Source: Pseudobdellovibrionaceae bacterium
GTDB lineage: Bacteria > Bdellovibrionota > Bdellovibrionia > Bdellovibrionales > Bdellovibrionaceae
Assembly (NCBI GenBank): GCA_019637875.1
Contig: JAHBUW010000001.1
Span: 434,001-498,000 of the forward strand
Reading direction: 5' to 3'
Length of the DNA: 64,000 nucleotides
Below the pieces are notes generated by a model. The model did no database searches. It saw nothing but the letters and a program-made list of their open reading frames with translations, and had not been told where the DNA came from. The stretch's first letter is position 1; every line of letters starts with the position of its first letter. The translations under genes and the position numbers were made by a program. Below are positions 49,521-55,825 of this stretch, piece after piece.

Positions 49521-49621
49521 CCCTTAAGTCTAATGTGAAGGCGTGGCCGTTTGGCAGAGCCGGGTCGCGAAATCCCACGCAAGCTGGACTTTGGTGAGGC
49601 GACCCGCTACATTCGGTGCCC

Positions 49622-50449
49622 ATGTCACTCGCGACTCCTTGGAAAGACGTTACTTTCGTGGCCTTCGATACCGAAACTTCGGGCGCTTTTCCCGTGGGTT
49701 TTGAGATCGTCGAGATGGGCGCGGTCAAATGGAAGAACGGTCAGATCCTCGATCGGTTCCAAGCGCTGATCAAACCCAGCGTCCCCATGGGGGAAGAGGT
49801 CATCAAGATCCACGGCATCACGAACGAGATGGTCGCCGATGCGCCGCCTTTGAGCGAGGTTTTACCGAAGTTCATGGAGTTTCTGGGCGACGCGGTGATC
49901 ATCGCACACCATGCGCCGTTCGATCTGGGCTTTTTGGTTTACGATTTGGAGCGCGCGGGCCTGAAGGTGCCGACCACGCCGGCGCTGTGCTCGAGTCTGC
50001 TCGCCCGTCGCATGATCACGGAAAGTGAAAACCACCGCCTGCAAACCTTGGTGAAGGTGCTGAATCTCGGCGAGAACACCGCGCACCGTGCGCTCGACGA
50101 TGCGGAATCGTGCCAGCGCCTGAGCGAGATCATCTTCGCCCGCGTGGGTGCGGACGCGACGCTTGCGGAAATCACCAACAAGATGGCGAAGCGGGTCGTC
50201 TGGAGCGACTATACGCTTTTGAACTCGGGCCAAGAGAATCTGAAAACCTTGGTCGAAGCGGTTCGTAGCAAAAAAGACGTCGATTTCGTCTATGGTGGCG
50301 GCTCGAACAAAGGCCTCACCCGGCGTATGACCCCCATCGGCGTCGTCCGCAACCCTGATGGCGACTTTGTTCAGGCCATCTGCCATATCGACCGCGCCAG
50401 CAAACGTTTCTACGTCGGCCGCATGACGGATCTGCAAATCGTTTATTAG
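49622..50449 (+). CDS. DnaQ-like 3'-5' exonuclease fused to a WYL-type domain
   Basis: Residues about 10-175 form a DEDDh exonuclease: VAFDTETSGAFPVGFEIVEMG (Exo I), VIIAHHAPFDLGFL (Exo II) and AHRALDDAESC (Exo III). Residues about 200-275 resemble a WYL domain: LKTLVEAVRSKKDVDFVYGG, RRMTPIGVVRNPDGDF and DRASKRFYVGRMTDL. WYL domains bind nucleic acid or nucleotide ligands in defence and DNA-damage proteins. Start ATG 49622 is preferred over GTG 49616. The gene is convergent with the HAMP protein, 1 bp apart. It is not an obvious DNA polymerase epsilon. Confidence 0.75.
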   Translation: MSLATPWKDVTFVAFDTETSGAFPVGFEIVEMGAVKWKNGQILDRFQALIKPSVPMGEEVIKIHGITNEMVADAPPLSEVLPKFMEFLGDAVIIAHHAPFDLGFLVYDLERAGLKVPTTPALCSSLLARRMITESENHRLQTLVKVLNLGENTAHRALDDAESCQRLSEIIFARVGADATLAEITNKMAKRVVWSDYTLLNSGQENLKTLVEAVRSKKDVDFVYGGGSNKGLTRRMTPIGVVRNPDGDFVQAICHIDRASKRFYVGRMTDLQIVY

Positions 50450-50450
50450 A

Positions 50451-50960
50451 TTACTTATCTTTGGGCAGCGCCCGATTGATCGCTTCCGCGAGTTCGTGGA
50501 AGTAGTCCTTCTCGCGGAACGTGATGAAACGTTTGTTCTTGGGGTTCTCGCCGACGGAGTTCAGGTAGTTGCAGGCGTGATAGATGGGGCCGGCGATCCG
50601 GTGCGAGACGAGCAGCAGGAAGCTCATGATGATGAAGCTGACGGCGACGAGCACCATGACGAACCAGGGGAACATCAGGGAGTGCAGGCCTTCGATGGCT
50701 TCGACGAGATTCGCTTCGGTACCGCGTTTTTCGATCACGATCTGCGAAACCTGGAACAAGAAGAACGTCTCGTAGAAATAGAAGAGTGCGGTGACGATGA
50801 CGATCAGAAGCAGGCCCTGCACCATCACGCTGAGCTGGAAGCGGGGATTGATCAGGAGGATGCGACGGCGATTTGCCGCCGCTTTGGCTTGCTCGATGAT
50901 CGGATCGCTTGCGGTACCGGTTCCGGTGCTCTTCTTGGTGTCGTCGCCCACGGTTTTCAT
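50451..50960 (-). CDS. Two-helix membrane HAMP protein
   Basis: A 169-residue protein with two transmembrane helices (about 45-70 and 95-120) and a short HAMP-like cytoplasmic region starting SHRIAGPIYHACNYL. The N-terminal segment has INPRFQL just before the first helix. No kinase, methyl-accepting or GGDEF output follows. The same elements, VNKKFQL and SHKIAGPIY, occur in the C-terminal half of the LspA fusion 21 bp upstream, so the two domains are paralogous. It may be a sensor or adaptor that oligomerises with the fusion. Confidence 0.7.
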   Translation of the reverse strand: MKTVGDDTKKSTGTGTASDPIIEQAKAAANRRRILLINPRFQLSVMVQGLLLIVIVTALFYFYETFFLFQVSQIVIEKRGTEANLVEAIEGLHSLMFPWFVMVLVAVSFIIMSFLLLVSHRIAGPIYHACNYLNSVGENPKNKRFITFREKDYFHELAEAINRALPKDK

Positions 50961-50981
50961 CTCGTCCTCGGGTGATTTGTA

Positions 50982-51977
50982 TTAAGCGGAGTGTCTCGCG
51001 TTCGGGTCCGGAGAGGGCAGCGCTTCCACCGGCGTTTCGCGACCGACCTCGGGCGCGGCGGGCGCCAAAGGACCGCGCAGTTCCGTCATTTTGTCCTGAA
51101 TCTGGCGATGCAAGGCTTCGAGCTGTTTGAACTCGTCCTTCGCGCGGAGTTTCAGCGGTCGCATGTCCTTGCCGCTCTCCAGATTGCGTAAGGTCTCGAG
51201 CATGGAGCGCTCGAAAGCGTAAATGGGACCCGCGATCTTATGTGAGATGACTTTCCCCACCGTGAAGAGACCGAGCGAGAAACCGACGCTGATCAGGGCG
51301 AAGACCTGCGCGAACGGCATCACGTACTTGTCCAAGCGGGGATCGTTCTCGCCCAGCAGGTCGATCAGCGCGACGCGGATGTAGGTGAAGCTGAAAACCA
51401 TCGTCACGAGCGAGATTCCGAGGCCGACCCCGAGCAGGATCGCGCAGTATTTGAGCTGGAATTTCTTGTTCACCCAGTACTGCTTGCGGATGTTGTTTTC
51501 GGGCCAAATCAAGTCGCCGTCCTTGAAGACGCCGATCAGGATCAGGGCGTAGCCGACCCACTGAAGGGCGTCCGCGACGTTGAAGACCGGGGACTGCCAT
51601 CTTTCATTGCCGATGACGATGAAGTCGACGACTTCGCCCCACAGGATGCGGTCCGTGACGTTCCCCATGATGCCGCCGAGGACGATCGACAGACCCGTGC
51701 GGAGTTTCATGGTTTTGATCGGGAGCAGGAATTGGATCAAGGCGTAGATGCAAACCAGGAACGCGCCGGCAGTCGACAGCGACACGATCCGCAGGAATTC
51801 CGGCAGATTCGAGAACAGCCCGAGCATCGCGCCTTTGTTATGGTGAAGTACGAAATGCAAATACTCGTACTGCGAGACGGTGCCTTGAATACCGACGGCC
51901 CACATCTTCGACAGACGATCGAGCGCCCACGTCACCGCTAACGGAAAAAATACGACAACCCAGTCTTCTCTTCTCAT
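50982..51977 (-). CDS. lspA: Signal peptidase II (LspA) fused to a TM-HAMP module
   Basis: Residues 1-155 are lipoprotein signal peptidase: DRLSKMW near residue 20, LHHNKGAMLGLF (about 43-54), GGIMGNVTDRILWG with catalytic Asp109, and FNVADA with catalytic Asp136. Residues about 168-300 add VNKKFQL, two further transmembrane helices (about 177-200 and 220-243), then SHKIAGPIYAFERSMLE and a HAMP-like region ending DEFKQLEALHRQIQDK. LspA normally has about 160-170 residues and four helices, so this is an unusual fusion. Its gene starts 6 bp after the GGDEF gene's stop codon. ATG 51977 is the natural start. Confidence 0.88.
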   Translation of the reverse strand: MRREDWVVVFFPLAVTWALDRLSKMWAVGIQGTVSQYEYLHFVLHHNKGAMLGLFSNLPEFLRIVSLSTAGAFLVCIYALIQFLLPIKTMKLRTGLSIVLGGIMGNVTDRILWGEVVDFIVIGNERWQSPVFNVADALQWVGYALILIGVFKDGDLIWPENNIRKQYWVNKKFQLKYCAILLGVGLGISLVTMVFSFTYIRVALIDLLGENDPRLDKYVMPFAQVFALISVGFSLGLFTVGKVISHKIAGPIYAFERSMLETLRNLESGKDMRPLKLRAKDEFKQLEALHRQIQDKMTELRGPLAPAAPEVGRETPVEALPSPDPNARHSA

Positions 51978-51983
51978 GCCCCT

Positions 51984-52877
51984 TCAGGTTAAGGGCGTTG
52001 CCTTGGAACCCGCAATGGCGGTCTGATTTCGGCCACTTGTTTTGGCCGTATAGAGGGCTCGGTCTGCACTTTCGACAATCTGGGCTGGATCTTCGGCGTG
52101 ATCCGGATACGCGGCCAGACCCAGACTTAAATGGAGGCCGAGCTCCGCGCTCGCCTTCAGTCGTAGGCGTTCCGCGACTTCGAAGGCTTCTTCGGTTCCA
52201 GCTTCGGGCAGCAGAATCGCGAACTCGTCGCCGCCGTAGCGGCAGACCCAGTCAATCGCGCGCACGCTTTCGGTGAAGAGGCGCGAAAGTTTGCGCAGTA
52301 CTTCGTCGCCGTAGCTGTGTCCTTTCTCGTCGTTCATTTCTTTGAAGCGATCGAGGTCGATCATGAGGAGGGAGTAAGGACGGCGATGCCGGCGGGCGCG
52401 GCTGGATTCGCGCACCATCTGTTGCAGGAATCCGCGGCGATTCCAAAGGTGCGTGACCGGATCGGTCAGCGAGAGCTCTTGCCAGTATTGGCGGTCTTTC
52501 AACACGCGGGTCATCGCGAGCCCCTCGAGGACCGATTGGCGCAGCTCTTCGACGGCCCAAGGTTTGCGCAGGACACGGTGCGCGAGGTCGCGGTTCAAAA
52601 ATTGAATCAAGTCCGCTTCGGTCAGTTGTCCCGAGATCACCAGCCGCGCGGTGGTGGGCCAGTTGGCGCGGGCCTTCGCGAGCACTTCGAGCGCGCGTCC
52701 GTCCGCCAGCTGCAAATCGCAGAGAAACAGATCCGGCGCGGCCGCCTGAAAAATTTCGGACGAGGACGCGAAAAGCGCGTAATCGTAATCCGGCCCCAAC
52801 GCGCGGGTGAGCGCCCGGTGCTGATCCGTATCATCATCAAGAATCATAAGAGTTAGACGCCGGACCCCGGATGCCAT
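51984..52877 (-). CDS. Response regulator diguanylate cyclase (REC-GGDEF)
   Basis: An N-terminal receiver (about residues 8-120) has LMILDDDTDQ and the phospho-acceptor in LFLCDLQLADG, with a KPW motif. The C-terminal GGDEF domain (about 135-290) has SLTDPVTHLWNRRGF, MIDLDRFKEMND and CRYGGDEFAILLPEAG. RAID five residues before GGDEF is an inhibitory (RxxD) site. It should make c-di-GMP under phospho-control. It is first in a tight operon with the LspA fusion and the HAMP protein. ATG 52877 is used; an ATG at 52847 would remove ten residues. Confidence 0.9.
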   Translation of the reverse strand: MASGVRRLTLMILDDDTDQHRALTRALGPDYDYALFASSSEIFQAAAPDLFLCDLQLADGRALEVLAKARANWPTTARLVISGQLTEADLIQFLNRDLAHRVLRKPWAVEELRQSVLEGLAMTRVLKDRQYWQELSLTDPVTHLWNRRGFLQQMVRESSRARRHRRPYSLLMIDLDRFKEMNDEKGHSYGDEVLRKLSRLFTESVRAIDWVCRYGGDEFAILLPEAGTEEAFEVAERLRLKASAELGLHLSLGLAAYPDHAEDPAQIVESADRALYTAKTSGRNQTAIAGSKATPLT

Positions 52878-52937: not shown

Positions 52938-54395
52938 ATGGATATGCTGCGAAATTTTTTGATCCCCGCGATGCTCGTTTCCGCTTCCCTTTTTCATTTT
53001 AACGCTCCCGCACGTGCGACCGGCGTACTGGAGAACGACTTTCGCGCTCGTTTGAAGTCCGCAAAGCTGAAACCGGAAGATTTCGGCGTGATGATTGGCG
53101 AAGTCGGAGCCGAGGCTTTGCTCAGCCTGAACGCCGAGCGCCCCATGATTCCGGCCTCGATCACGAAGCTCGTGACCGCGGCTTCTTTCTTGAAACACTA
53201 TCCGCCCGGAACCAAGTTTAAAACTCAGCTGGTCGCCGACGCGAACGTCACAGGGGCGACGCTCAAGGGGAGTCTGTACCTGAAAGGCGCGGGCGATCCG
53301 GCGTTCGTATCCGAAACGATGTGGTTTCTGGTCAACGCCTTCACCCGCACGGGCGTCACGCAAGTCGACGGGGATCTGATCGTCGACGACAATCTGTTCG
53401 ATAGCCTGCGCTACGATCCGTCCCGTCAGGCGGACCGGGTGGATCGCGCCTACGATGCGCCCACGGGGGCGATGTCGTTCAATTGGAATTCGGTCAACAT
53501 CTTCGTGCGACCGGGAGCCAAGGCCGGGGATGCCGCGCGCGTTTGGCTGGATCCGGAAAACGAGTACGTGCGTCTGCGCGGAAGCGTGAAGACCTCGGGG
53601 AAGGGCGTGAACGTCAATATCGACCGCGATTTCGATAAAAAGTCCGGTCAGGACGTGATTCATGTTTCGGGTTCGATCGCTCCCGGCGCCAATGAGTACG
53701 TACAGTTCAAAAACATCACGAGTCCTGATCTGTGGGCGGGGGCGAATCTGAAATCCTTCCTGGCCCAGCGCGGGGTTAACGTGAAAGGGAAGGTTCTGCC
53801 CGGCCGCGCGCCGGAATCTGCGAAAGTTTTGGCCGAGGCGGAGTCCAAACCGGTCGAGCAGATCGTCGCGGATATGAACAAGTTCTCGAACAACTACGTG
53901 GCCGAAATGTTGACGAAACATCTGGGCCTGCTGCGCCAGAAACCCGGGACCATCGCGGGAGGTATGAAGGTGATCGAAGAGGATCTGCAGTCGATCGGGA
54001 TCGGCAAGGACCAGATGCTGCTGACGAATCCTTCGGGGCTGACGCGTGACAATCGCATCACCGCCCAGGCGATGTGGACGCTTCTCAAAAGCGTCGAAAC
54101 CGACTTTCAAAGTTATCCGGAGTTCGTGGCCTCGCTGCCGATCAGCGGGATCGACGGAACACTCAAGAAGCGGATGAAGGACAACGGTGGCGAGCGCCAG
54201 GTCCGGGCCAAGACTGGACTCTTGACCGGAGTGATCGCGCTGGCCGGTTACGGCGCTGGCAAAAAGACCGGAAAAGCGGTGCCGTTCGTGTTCATTTACA
54301 ACGGGAATGCCGATGGAGCTTTAGTGAGGTCCGTCGTTGATCGTTTCGTGGTGGAAAAGATCGTGAACGGCGAGGAACTTCAGAAGGTTCAGTGA
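52938..54395 (+). CDS. dacB: D-alanyl-D-alanine carboxypeptidase DacB (PBP4-type)
   Basis: A class C penicillin-binding protein with DD-carboxypeptidase and endopeptidase activity on peptidoglycan. A signal peptide (about residues 1-27) precedes the active-site motif SITK (Ser74-Lys77). SNN lies in NKFSNNYVAEML and KTG in RAKTGLLTGVIALAG. The inserted domains typical of PBP4 lie between SITK and SNN. Length 485 matches. Its stop overlaps the lytic transglycosylase start (TGATG), so both enzymes are co-expressed. Confidence 0.94.
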   Translation: MDMLRNFLIPAMLVSASLFHFNAPARATGVLENDFRARLKSAKLKPEDFGVMIGEVGAEALLSLNAERPMIPASITKLVTAASFLKHYPPGTKFKTQLVADANVTGATLKGSLYLKGAGDPAFVSETMWFLVNAFTRTGVTQVDGDLIVDDNLFDSLRYDPSRQADRVDRAYDAPTGAMSFNWNSVNIFVRPGAKAGDAARVWLDPENEYVRLRGSVKTSGKGVNVNIDRDFDKKSGQDVIHVSGSIAPGANEYVQFKNITSPDLWAGANLKSFLAQRGVNVKGKVLPGRAPESAKVLAEAESKPVEQIVADMNKFSNNYVAEMLTKHLGLLRQKPGTIAGGMKVIEEDLQSIGIGKDQMLLTNPSGLTRDNRITAQAMWTLLKSVETDFQSYPEFVASLPISGIDGTLKKRMKDNGGERQVRAKTGLLTGVIALAGYGAGKKTGKAVPFVFIYNGNADGALVRSVVDRFVVEKIVNGEELQKVQ

Positions 54396-55825
54396 TGTTG
54401 AAGCGCGGATTGATTTTCAATTTAGCTCTCTCGATCGTGCTCTCCTCCGTGGCGAGCAGCTCGGGCTTCGCTTGGCAGCGCTATCCCGATAGCGAGGCGA
54501 AAGGCGAAGAACTCATTCCGGGCCTCGCACCGGGTGGGCCGGGGACCGAGGGTCCCGATGCCGACATCGAATTGACCAAAGAAGATCTCGATACGCCCGT
54601 GACCCATCAAGAGATTGAAGGGGATCGCAATCTGACCTCCGCGCGTCCGTGGCGCGCTTCGGATTTTACCAATCAAAAAGGGGCGCTCGGTTGGAATGAA
54701 ACCGCTTTCGCGATCCCGCGCGGGCTGGAGCCGAACGTGGCGTTCTGGCTCGACATCTACACGAAGTACACGACCGATCAGGGCGTCGTTCACGATGCCG
54801 AATACATCGACCTCGTTTACGAAGTCCTCGATTTCACGCCCATCATGATGCGCACGGATATCAACATCTTCAAAAAAGAGCGCATGAAGACCCAACGGGT
54901 GAAAGAGGCGAAAGAGCGCGTGAAGGCGCTGCTGAAGAAGTTGAACGACACCACCGATCCCGAATCGCTGAGCGCGGACGAGCGCAAGATCTGGGACTAC
55001 TTCACGAAATTCGACAGCAAGAAAAAATTCTCCGAGGCGATGGATAAAGATCGCATTCGCTTCCAATTGGGGCAGCGTGACCGCGTGATCCAGGGGATCT
55101 TCTTTTCGGGACGTTACCTGGAGGACTTTGAAAAGGTCTTCAAAGAGGCGGGCCTGCCGATCGAGCTTTCGCGACTGCCTTTCGTGGAATCTTCGTTCAA
55201 CGTGATGGCGCGATCGAAAGTCGGCGCGAGCGGTCTGTGGCAGATCATGCCCTATACGGCCCGCGGCTACATGATGATGAACAAAGCCATCGACAAGCGG
55301 AATCACCCGGTCGAGGGCGCGAAGATGGCGGCGAAGCTTCTGCGCGACAATTACCGCATGCTGGGCATGTGGCCGCTCGCGGTGACGGGTTACAACCACG
55401 GTCCCACCGGCGTTCTGCGTTTGACCAAGCTGCACAAATCCAAAGAGATCGGCGATCTATTCCCGAAGGGCGCGAAGAAACGCCTGGGATTCGCGTCGCG
55501 GAACTTCTACGCGAGCTTCATGGCGATCCTGGAAGTCGAGCGCAACGCCCCCAAGTATTTCGGCAATGTGCAGTGGTCGCAGCCCTTGGCTTCGGTCGAC
55601 GTGAAGTTGCCATTTGCCATAAAGTATAAGGACGTTTTGCGTTGGTTTGAGGGCGACGACCACCGTGCGCAAATCTTCAATCCGCACATCACCTTCGACG
55701 CGCGCAAAGGAAAATTTCCCCTGCCTCCGGGCGCGTTGATCTCGGTGCCGATTTCGAAAAAAGACCAAATCCTAGGCGAATTGAAGGATGCGAAATCCTT
55801 TAAGCGGCTGAGCGAAGGTCAATAA
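54395..55825 (+). CDS. Lytic murein transglycosylase (MltD/GH23-like)
   Basis: An exported lytic transglycosylase that cleaves peptidoglycan glycan strands. A signal peptide (about residues 1-27) and a long N-terminal region precede the SLT domain. The catalytic Glu265 lies in LPFVESSFNVMARSKVG, followed by ASGLWQIMPYTARGYMM and the VTGYNHGPTGVLRL motif. The C-terminus has no clear LysM repeat, unlike MltD. ATG 54395 overlaps the dacB stop. Coupling with dacB suggests a shared role in wall remodelling. Confidence 0.9.
   Translation: MLKRGLIFNLALSIVLSSVASSSGFAWQRYPDSEAKGEELIPGLAPGGPGTEGPDADIELTKEDLDTPVTHQEIEGDRNLTSARPWRASDFTNQKGALGWNETAFAIPRGLEPNVAFWLDIYTKYTTDQGVVHDAEYIDLVYEVLDFTPIMMRTDINIFKKERMKTQRVKEAKERVKALLKKLNDTTDPESLSADERKIWDYFTKFDSKKKFSEAMDKDRIRFQLGQRDRVIQGIFFSGRYLEDFEKVFKEAGLPIELSRLPFVESSFNVMARSKVGASGLWQIMPYTARGYMMMNKAIDKRNHPVEGAKMAAKLLRDNYRMLGMWPLAVTGYNHGPTGVLRLTKLHKSKEIGDLFPKGAKKRLGFASRNFYASFMAILEVERNAPKYFGNVQWSQPLASVDVKLPFAIKYKDVLRWFEGDDHRAQIFNPHITFDARKGKFPLPPGALISVPISKKDQILGELKDAKSFKRLSEGQ

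Follow-up and report, generated by a model that had tools for sequence, protein, structure and literature searches.

A candidate second signal peptidase II with a HAMP-like tail, repeatedly neighboring a diguanylate cyclase gene, in Bdellovibrionales

Signal peptidase II (SPase II, LspA) is generally viewed as a drug target and a housekeeping enzyme that is not regulated, and Bdellovibrio-like predators remodel their envelope at each prey entry. A locus in a Pseudobdellovibrionaceae bacterium raises the question of what such a peptidase does when it carries a transmembrane (TM)-HAMP-like tail and is encoded beside a c-di-GMP enzyme, and whether the genes found together there form a unit. The window analyzed is a stretch of 64,000 nt (assembly GCA_019637875.1, contig JAHBUW010000001.1, forward-strand positions 434,001-498,000) with the following features:

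49616-50449, plus strand: exonuclease (RNase_T) with WYL domain; convergent neighbor, conserved
50451-50960, minus strand: standalone TM-TM-HAMP-like protein (TM-HAMP), 169 aa; from a protein family present in multiple copies in the phylum
50982-51977, minus strand: LspA-HAMP, 331 aa; signal peptidase II domain (residues ~1-157) plus TM5-TM6-HAMP-like tail (~163-304)
51066-51320, minus strand: part of LspA-HAMP, TM6 plus HAMP-like (residues 220-304); S245, G250, P251, R278, and D281 invariant in 63/63 aligned
51984-52877, minus strand: REC-GGDEF diguanylate cyclase, 297 aa; phospho-acceptor Asp, GGDEF, RxxD inhibitory site
52938-54395, plus strand: dacB-type D-Ala-D-Ala carboxypeptidase (Peptidase_S13); divergent neighbor, conserved in the locus
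54392-55825, plus strand: lytic transglycosylase (SLT) downstream of dacB; conserved neighbor

As originally predicted, the cyclase, LspA-HAMP, and TM-HAMP genes share one strand and are separated by 6 and 21 bp; ORF coordinates bear this out and place all three on the minus strand. The cyclase gene begins 60 bp from the divergent dacB, and the TM-HAMP gene lies 1 bp from the convergent exonuclease-WYL gene. Gene starts are the first start codons of the ORFs, and homolog starts agree for the cyclase and LspA-HAMP. A consensus scan, which is weak evidence, found no minus-strand terminators or internal promoters between the three genes, and no c-di-GMP riboswitch matched Rfam at gathering scores across the whole window. 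The three genes are probably co-transcribed.

The peptidase domain and its tail

The Pfam Peptidase_A8 model matched the window LspA-HAMP at E 5.6e-24 (85.4 bits against a curated cutoff of 25) as the sole Pfam domain shown for this protein, and it matched all 63 aligned LspA-HAMP sequences. The window protein scored 57.7 bits with the NCBIfam lspA equivalog model, below the cutoff of 73.95. For Staphylococcus aureus LspA, PMC6952399 gives 14 conserved residues, including the catalytic pair Asp118 and Asp136; all 14 active-site residues listed there are present in window LspA-HAMP, and its catalytic Asp pair coincides even in numbering (118, 136). Twelve of the 14 are invariant across the 63 aligned sequences (window included), and the remaining two are V116 (V in 61, I in 2) and F132 (F in 56). 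A model predicted from the 63-row alignment (mean pLDDT 88.1) shows the four-TM LspA fold with its beta-cradle. Over residues 1-155, this LspA part matched the experimental folds 5dir_C (Z 15.6, rmsd 2.7, 139 aligned) and 6ryo_A (Z 15.2, rmsd 3.4, 149 aligned). Judged by its active-site residues and predicted fold, LspA-HAMP qualifies as a second SPase II. It shares the fold and the same 14 conserved residues with known signal peptidases II (PF01252; 5dir, 6ryo) and differs from them in adding a TM-TM-HAMP-like tail of ~140 residues and in being a second copy in a genome that has a canonical lspA. That canonical gene lies elsewhere in the window genome (C1:407872-408300), where its end overlaps the start of lgt.

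The tail is confidently predicted: in the model, the fourth LspA helix is followed by two long helices spanning 171-208 and 214-268, then by a connector and helix 285-304, which correspond to TM, TM, AS1, connector, and AS2, with AS1-connector-AS2 following TM2. Structural comparison matched residues 171-315 to the TM-HAMP part of WalK (9a5d, an integrative model; Z 8.3, rmsd 3.5, 141 aligned) and residues 167-304 to NarQ (5iji; Z 6.6, rmsd 6.4, 132 aligned), Z scores that are middling for helical proteins. Within the tail, Q174, S245, G250, P251, R278, and D281 are invariant in all 63 sequences, window included. Like the TM-HAMP parts of WalK and NarQ, the tail runs TM, TM, helix-connector-helix; unlike these proteins, LspA-HAMP carries neither a kinase nor any further output domain behind HAMP, and PF00672 (HAMP) goes undetected. 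This model gave no match up to E 10 for the window LspA-HAMP or TM-HAMP, and it was absent from the best 25 families, up to E 1, for the 15 standalone or 63 fused sequences. We therefore term the module HAMP-like, with the HAMP assignment based on profile-profile comparison and structure. When aligned, profile to profile, with Pfam-positive HAMP domains from the same genome, both the fused tail (probability 45, score 26.5) and the standalone family (probability 91, score 42.6) were in register. Controls comprised 20 column-shuffled alignments each (40 in total) plus reversed ones; the shuffled maxima were 14.6 for standalone and 17.2 for fused, and the reversed scores were 16.0 and 11.9, respectively. 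From the four plus two membrane helices of the model, we infer that the HAMP-like part is cytoplasmic.

The lone TM-HAMP protein had been predicted to be paralogous to the tail, and this claim stands. FQL and SH(R/K)IAGPIY blocks are common to both, and the two family profiles align over 141 columns with a probability of 99.5 (E 2.9e-23), which places the paralogy beyond chance. The predicted TM-HAMP model is weaker (pLDDT 74) and matched WalK with Z 8.1; Foldseek alone returned no significant match for this model, and searching PDB sequences with the standalone-family profile turned up nothing relevant. At E 1e-3, the standalone family matched in 167 of 191 phylum genomes, often in several copies, with some of these matches being LspA-HAMP tails. 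Another member resides in the window genome (C1:34623, 36% identical).

Two further architectures were observed. One LspA-HAMP (L102:5479-6933, genome G011) carries an extra C-terminal AhpC/TSA (peroxiredoxin-type) domain, so that a single protein combines SPase II, the HAMP-like tail, and a redox domain. The window's own genome encodes a poly-HAMP protein with nine consecutive HAMP domains (G000:C21:11788-14153; L199-L204, L206, L207, L210), the last of which sits in a differently sized open frame.

Distribution and gene neighborhood

Searches for LspA-HAMP covered the phylum. Of 53 genomes sampled from the family and order, 52 encode the full-length protein, and it is patchily distributed through the phylum. 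In a larger set, 62 of 66 family genomes among those listed match at E 1e-20 or better. The same 52 genomes have at least two SPase II domains, and G177, a 1.2-Mb genome without LspA-HAMP, has one. Given these counts and the canonical lspA by lgt, LspA-HAMP is an extra enzyme beside housekeeping lspA-lgt, added to the housekeeping LspA and not substituting for it. Neither G213 (99% complete, same family) nor G177 (same order) yielded an LspA-HAMP match, so the gene can be lost.

Pfam recognized both domains of the window cyclase above cutoff (GGDEF, 3.8e-42, 144.2 bits; Response_reg, 1.6e-8, 35.1 bits). The protein reads RAIDWVCRYGGDEF, with RxxD five residues ahead of GGDEF, confirming the predicted signature motif and inhibitory site. 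Among 22 cyclases, window included, GG(D/E)EF and KPW are kept in all and the phospho-acceptor Asp in 21; L150 is represented by a shorter frame only (244 aa). The RxxD site occurs in 11 of these 22, none with OppA upstream, and 8 of the 11 lacking RxxD have OppA.

In 19 of 80 named relatives' loci, drawn from several clades, LspA-HAMP has an orthologous REC-GGDEF gene no more than 300 bp upstream, and in two more (L161, L166) this gene is ~2.9 kb upstream; in L124, the GGDEF protein encoded 1.7 kb from LspA-HAMP is a different one. These 80 loci were the best matches to the window family, so the set is biased toward its kin. The cyclase is absent from 57 of the 79 scored loci. When other genomes of the order were searched with the window cyclase at a threshold of E 1e-30, the eight strongest matches (G157, G097, G190, G121, G036, G053, G162, and G168) all shared a contig with LspA-HAMP, at distances of 30-130 bp in five cases, ~2.9 kb in two, and ~11 kb in one. 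Pairwise identities of cyclase and LspA-HAMP across 22 loci correlate (r 0.64; 0 of 10,000 permutations as high), as joint descent predicts. On the LspA-HAMP tree, the cyclase label requires 12 changes, of which well-supported branches force at least five; no shuffle out of 500 gave as few. In another family, f12, all three fetched loci (L113-L115; G030, G022, G006) have an oppA-cyclase pair divergent from dacB without LspA-HAMP, with Pfam domains checked in L114 and the other two judged by eye from ORFs. The best LspA-HAMP matches in these genomes (9.0e-9, 1.0e-4, and 1.8e-7, respectively) are at the level of plain LspA. The change count is itself blind to gain versus loss; read together with the f12 arrangement, it suggests an ancient cyclase gene that was repeatedly lost. 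Because the f12 loci retain dacB and oppA-cyclase without LspA-HAMP, the cyclase may belong as much to the dacB/oppA block as to LspA-HAMP.

The wider neighborhood was sampled in 40 fetched regions plus the window and in the 80 named loci. The usual order is SLT-dacB, divergent from (oppA)(cyclase)lspA-HAMP, followed by exonuclease-WYL, MotB, MotA, and DsbD, with local insertions; more distant families depart from it. The cyclase linkage sits within this older block of dacB divergent from oppA-dgc-lspA-HAMP. OppA-type genes (SBP_bac_5) lie upstream of LspA-HAMP in 28 of 80 loci, 8 of which also have the cyclase. Ten of 29 OppA proteins pass a lipobox scorer that is too strict, several more showing a lipobox by eye. 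Opposite-strand genes are as syntenic as the operon genes, in a block that includes SLT, dacB, exonuclease, MotBA, and DsbD; with the whole block syntenic on both strands, the closeness of two genes says little by itself about whether they act together. In Bdellovibrio bacteriovorus (L132), LspA-HAMP adjoins dacB and no cyclase is found there. PMC3276566 describes Bd3244 as constitutive and housekeeping, and PMC11323537 identifies MotB3 as Bd3253; from gene order and locus numbers, the L132 dacB may be Bd3244. In one clade, LspA-HAMP is directly followed by another gene for a lytic transglycosylase (L146:7984-8865; likewise in L149 and L150).

The third gene behaves differently from the cyclase. 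TM-HAMP was found downstream of LspA-HAMP in 0 of 77 relatives' loci with at least 700 bp of downstream sequence, and the window is alone among 41 regions in having two family members in one region. Even the closest relative, L116 (LspA-HAMP 62% identical), lacks a TM-HAMP gene by LspA-HAMP. TM-HAMP next to LspA-HAMP is thus a local addition found in the window only, the window's genus being represented by one genome. In L116, the two minus-strand genes downstream of LspA-HAMP (L116:4225-5645) are AbiE-type toxin-antitoxin-like by eye. The original prediction was of a three-gene signaling unit in which the HAMP proteins would oligomerize and the cyclase would report or control lipoprotein maturation. 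As a gene set it held in part: the cyclase/LspA-HAMP pair recurs and its linkage is partly conserved, but the cyclase is missing in most loci and the three genes co-occur in none of the 77 relatives' loci with enough downstream sequence. On these counts, we rejected a conserved three-gene operon.

Candidate substrates and known systems

Four f14 loci (L098, L099, L101, and L103) carry a putative lipoprotein gene of cluster c11 1-21 bp upstream of LspA-HAMP, which fits a dedicated substrate set. The upstream cassette in these loci encodes two putative lipoproteins whose signals end unusually, for instance in LLSFNHC; Pfam gave no match for the genes sampled from the L098 cassette. By eye, the signals of all eight c11 proteins end in [FY][NT][HQN]C. 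We searched this lipobox motif as a DNA pattern in 191 genomes with the reversed pattern as control. The 21 f14 genomes with LspA-HAMP gave 133 matches versus 92 for the control, and the 28 without it gave 193 versus 139, a split set from the LspA-HAMP search in which partial matches (e.g., G141, G173, and G187) are arguable. With no difference between the two f14 groups (Mann-Whitney p 0.98, Fisher p 0.86), we rejected the non-canonical lipobox as a genome-wide specificity of LspA-HAMP. G177, without LspA-HAMP, still had 9 pattern matches versus 2 in the control.

Myxobacteria carry accessory LspA paralogs (LspA3) tied to an antibiotic cluster, a likeness in that an additional LspA occurs in a predatory lineage; we know of no HAMP tail on these proteins. 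Another related system is LapD-LapG, which PMC3032553 presents as inside-out c-di-GMP control of periplasmic proteolysis. Both cases place a HAMP module between the cytoplasm and proteolysis at the periplasmic face, with a c-di-GMP enzyme gene nearby; here, in contrast, the protease itself bears the HAMP-like tail. As to a LapD-type receptor, Pfam detected neither EAL nor any other domain that binds c-di-GMP in LspA-HAMP. Among open-licence PMC literature, none of the titles listed described an LspA plus HAMP fusion, no title or abstract opening on Bdellovibrio signal peptidase II or LspA concerned LspA-HAMP, and no title on lipoprotein signal peptidase with cyclic di-GMP was related. A signal peptidase II fused to a dimerization/relay-type module is thus undescribed at the level of the titles and abstract openings searched.

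Possible roles of the second peptidase

The neighbors dacB, SLT, lipoprotein-type peptide-binding oppA, and the c-di-GMP enzyme point to envelope remodeling. Argued from sequence and predicted structure, the simplest account is that LspA-HAMP is a further, catalytically competent SPase II whose HAMP-like tail holds it as a dimer and may gate it. As the best explanation of the whole, we moderately favor an active second SPase II that would be dimerized and signal-biased by its tail and accompanied by a co-regulated cyclase. LspA-HAMP would act alongside housekeeping lspA-lgt; the tail would most likely dimerize it and let a cytoplasmic or membrane signal bias it, and a lipoprotein subset would be matured under its own control. 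The lone TM-HAMP protein could pair with the tail. For c-di-GMP, we envisage a co-regulated input that need not be direct; gating by it would need a separate receptor, because LspA-HAMP shows no c-di-GMP domain. We infer the activity, dimerization, and regulation of LspA-HAMP, the transcription of the operon, and the hetero-pairing alike. A fully regulated pathway, in which the tail, with or without lone TM-HAMP, gates SPase II from inside while the cyclase sets the signal, so that Bdellovibrionota would deliver a selected group of lipoproteins to the envelope at particular stages of the life cycle, strikes us as rather unlikely.

The tail might instead be a structural anchor or dimer clamp on a constitutive, unregulated LspA-HAMP, with the cyclase a passenger in a stable envelope block. 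We regard this as a serious if tentative possibility: LspA-HAMP persists in the many scored loci without cyclase (57/79), the cyclase stays with dacB and oppA without LspA-HAMP in f12, and unrelated neighbors are equally syntenic. However, the invariant HAMP-type residues G250, P251, R278, and D281 (63/63) suggest more than an anchor, and cyclases by LspA-HAMP keep their receiver and GGDEF/GGEEF residues in scattered clades. Signaling could also run outside-in, in line with the original prediction, the LspA domain sensing signal peptide or lipoprotein load and HAMP relaying it to a cytoplasmic partner and ultimately the cyclase. The cytoplasm-facing HAMP predicted from the model's four plus two TM helices and the adjacent cyclase gene (19/80) would suit this route, yet LspA-HAMP has no output domain, no kinase is seen in the operon to phosphorylate the receiver domain, and the pair is often broken; we consider it very improbable. 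Least credible is an LspA-HAMP that is no longer a peptidase and works in the membrane as a receptor or scaffold. A canonical lspA by lgt frees the second copy to diverge, but the catalytic and substrate-pocket residues are all kept, 12 of 14 being invariant and the others conserved in 61 and 56 of 63 sequences.

Under our preferred reading of an active, tail-biased second SPase II, this near-universal additional copy in a predatory lineage, with its relay-type module and its recurrent c-di-GMP enzyme neighbor, would allow a direct test of whether lipoprotein maturation is regulated. To act on these bacteria, SPase II inhibitors would also need to hit LspA-HAMP as a second target.
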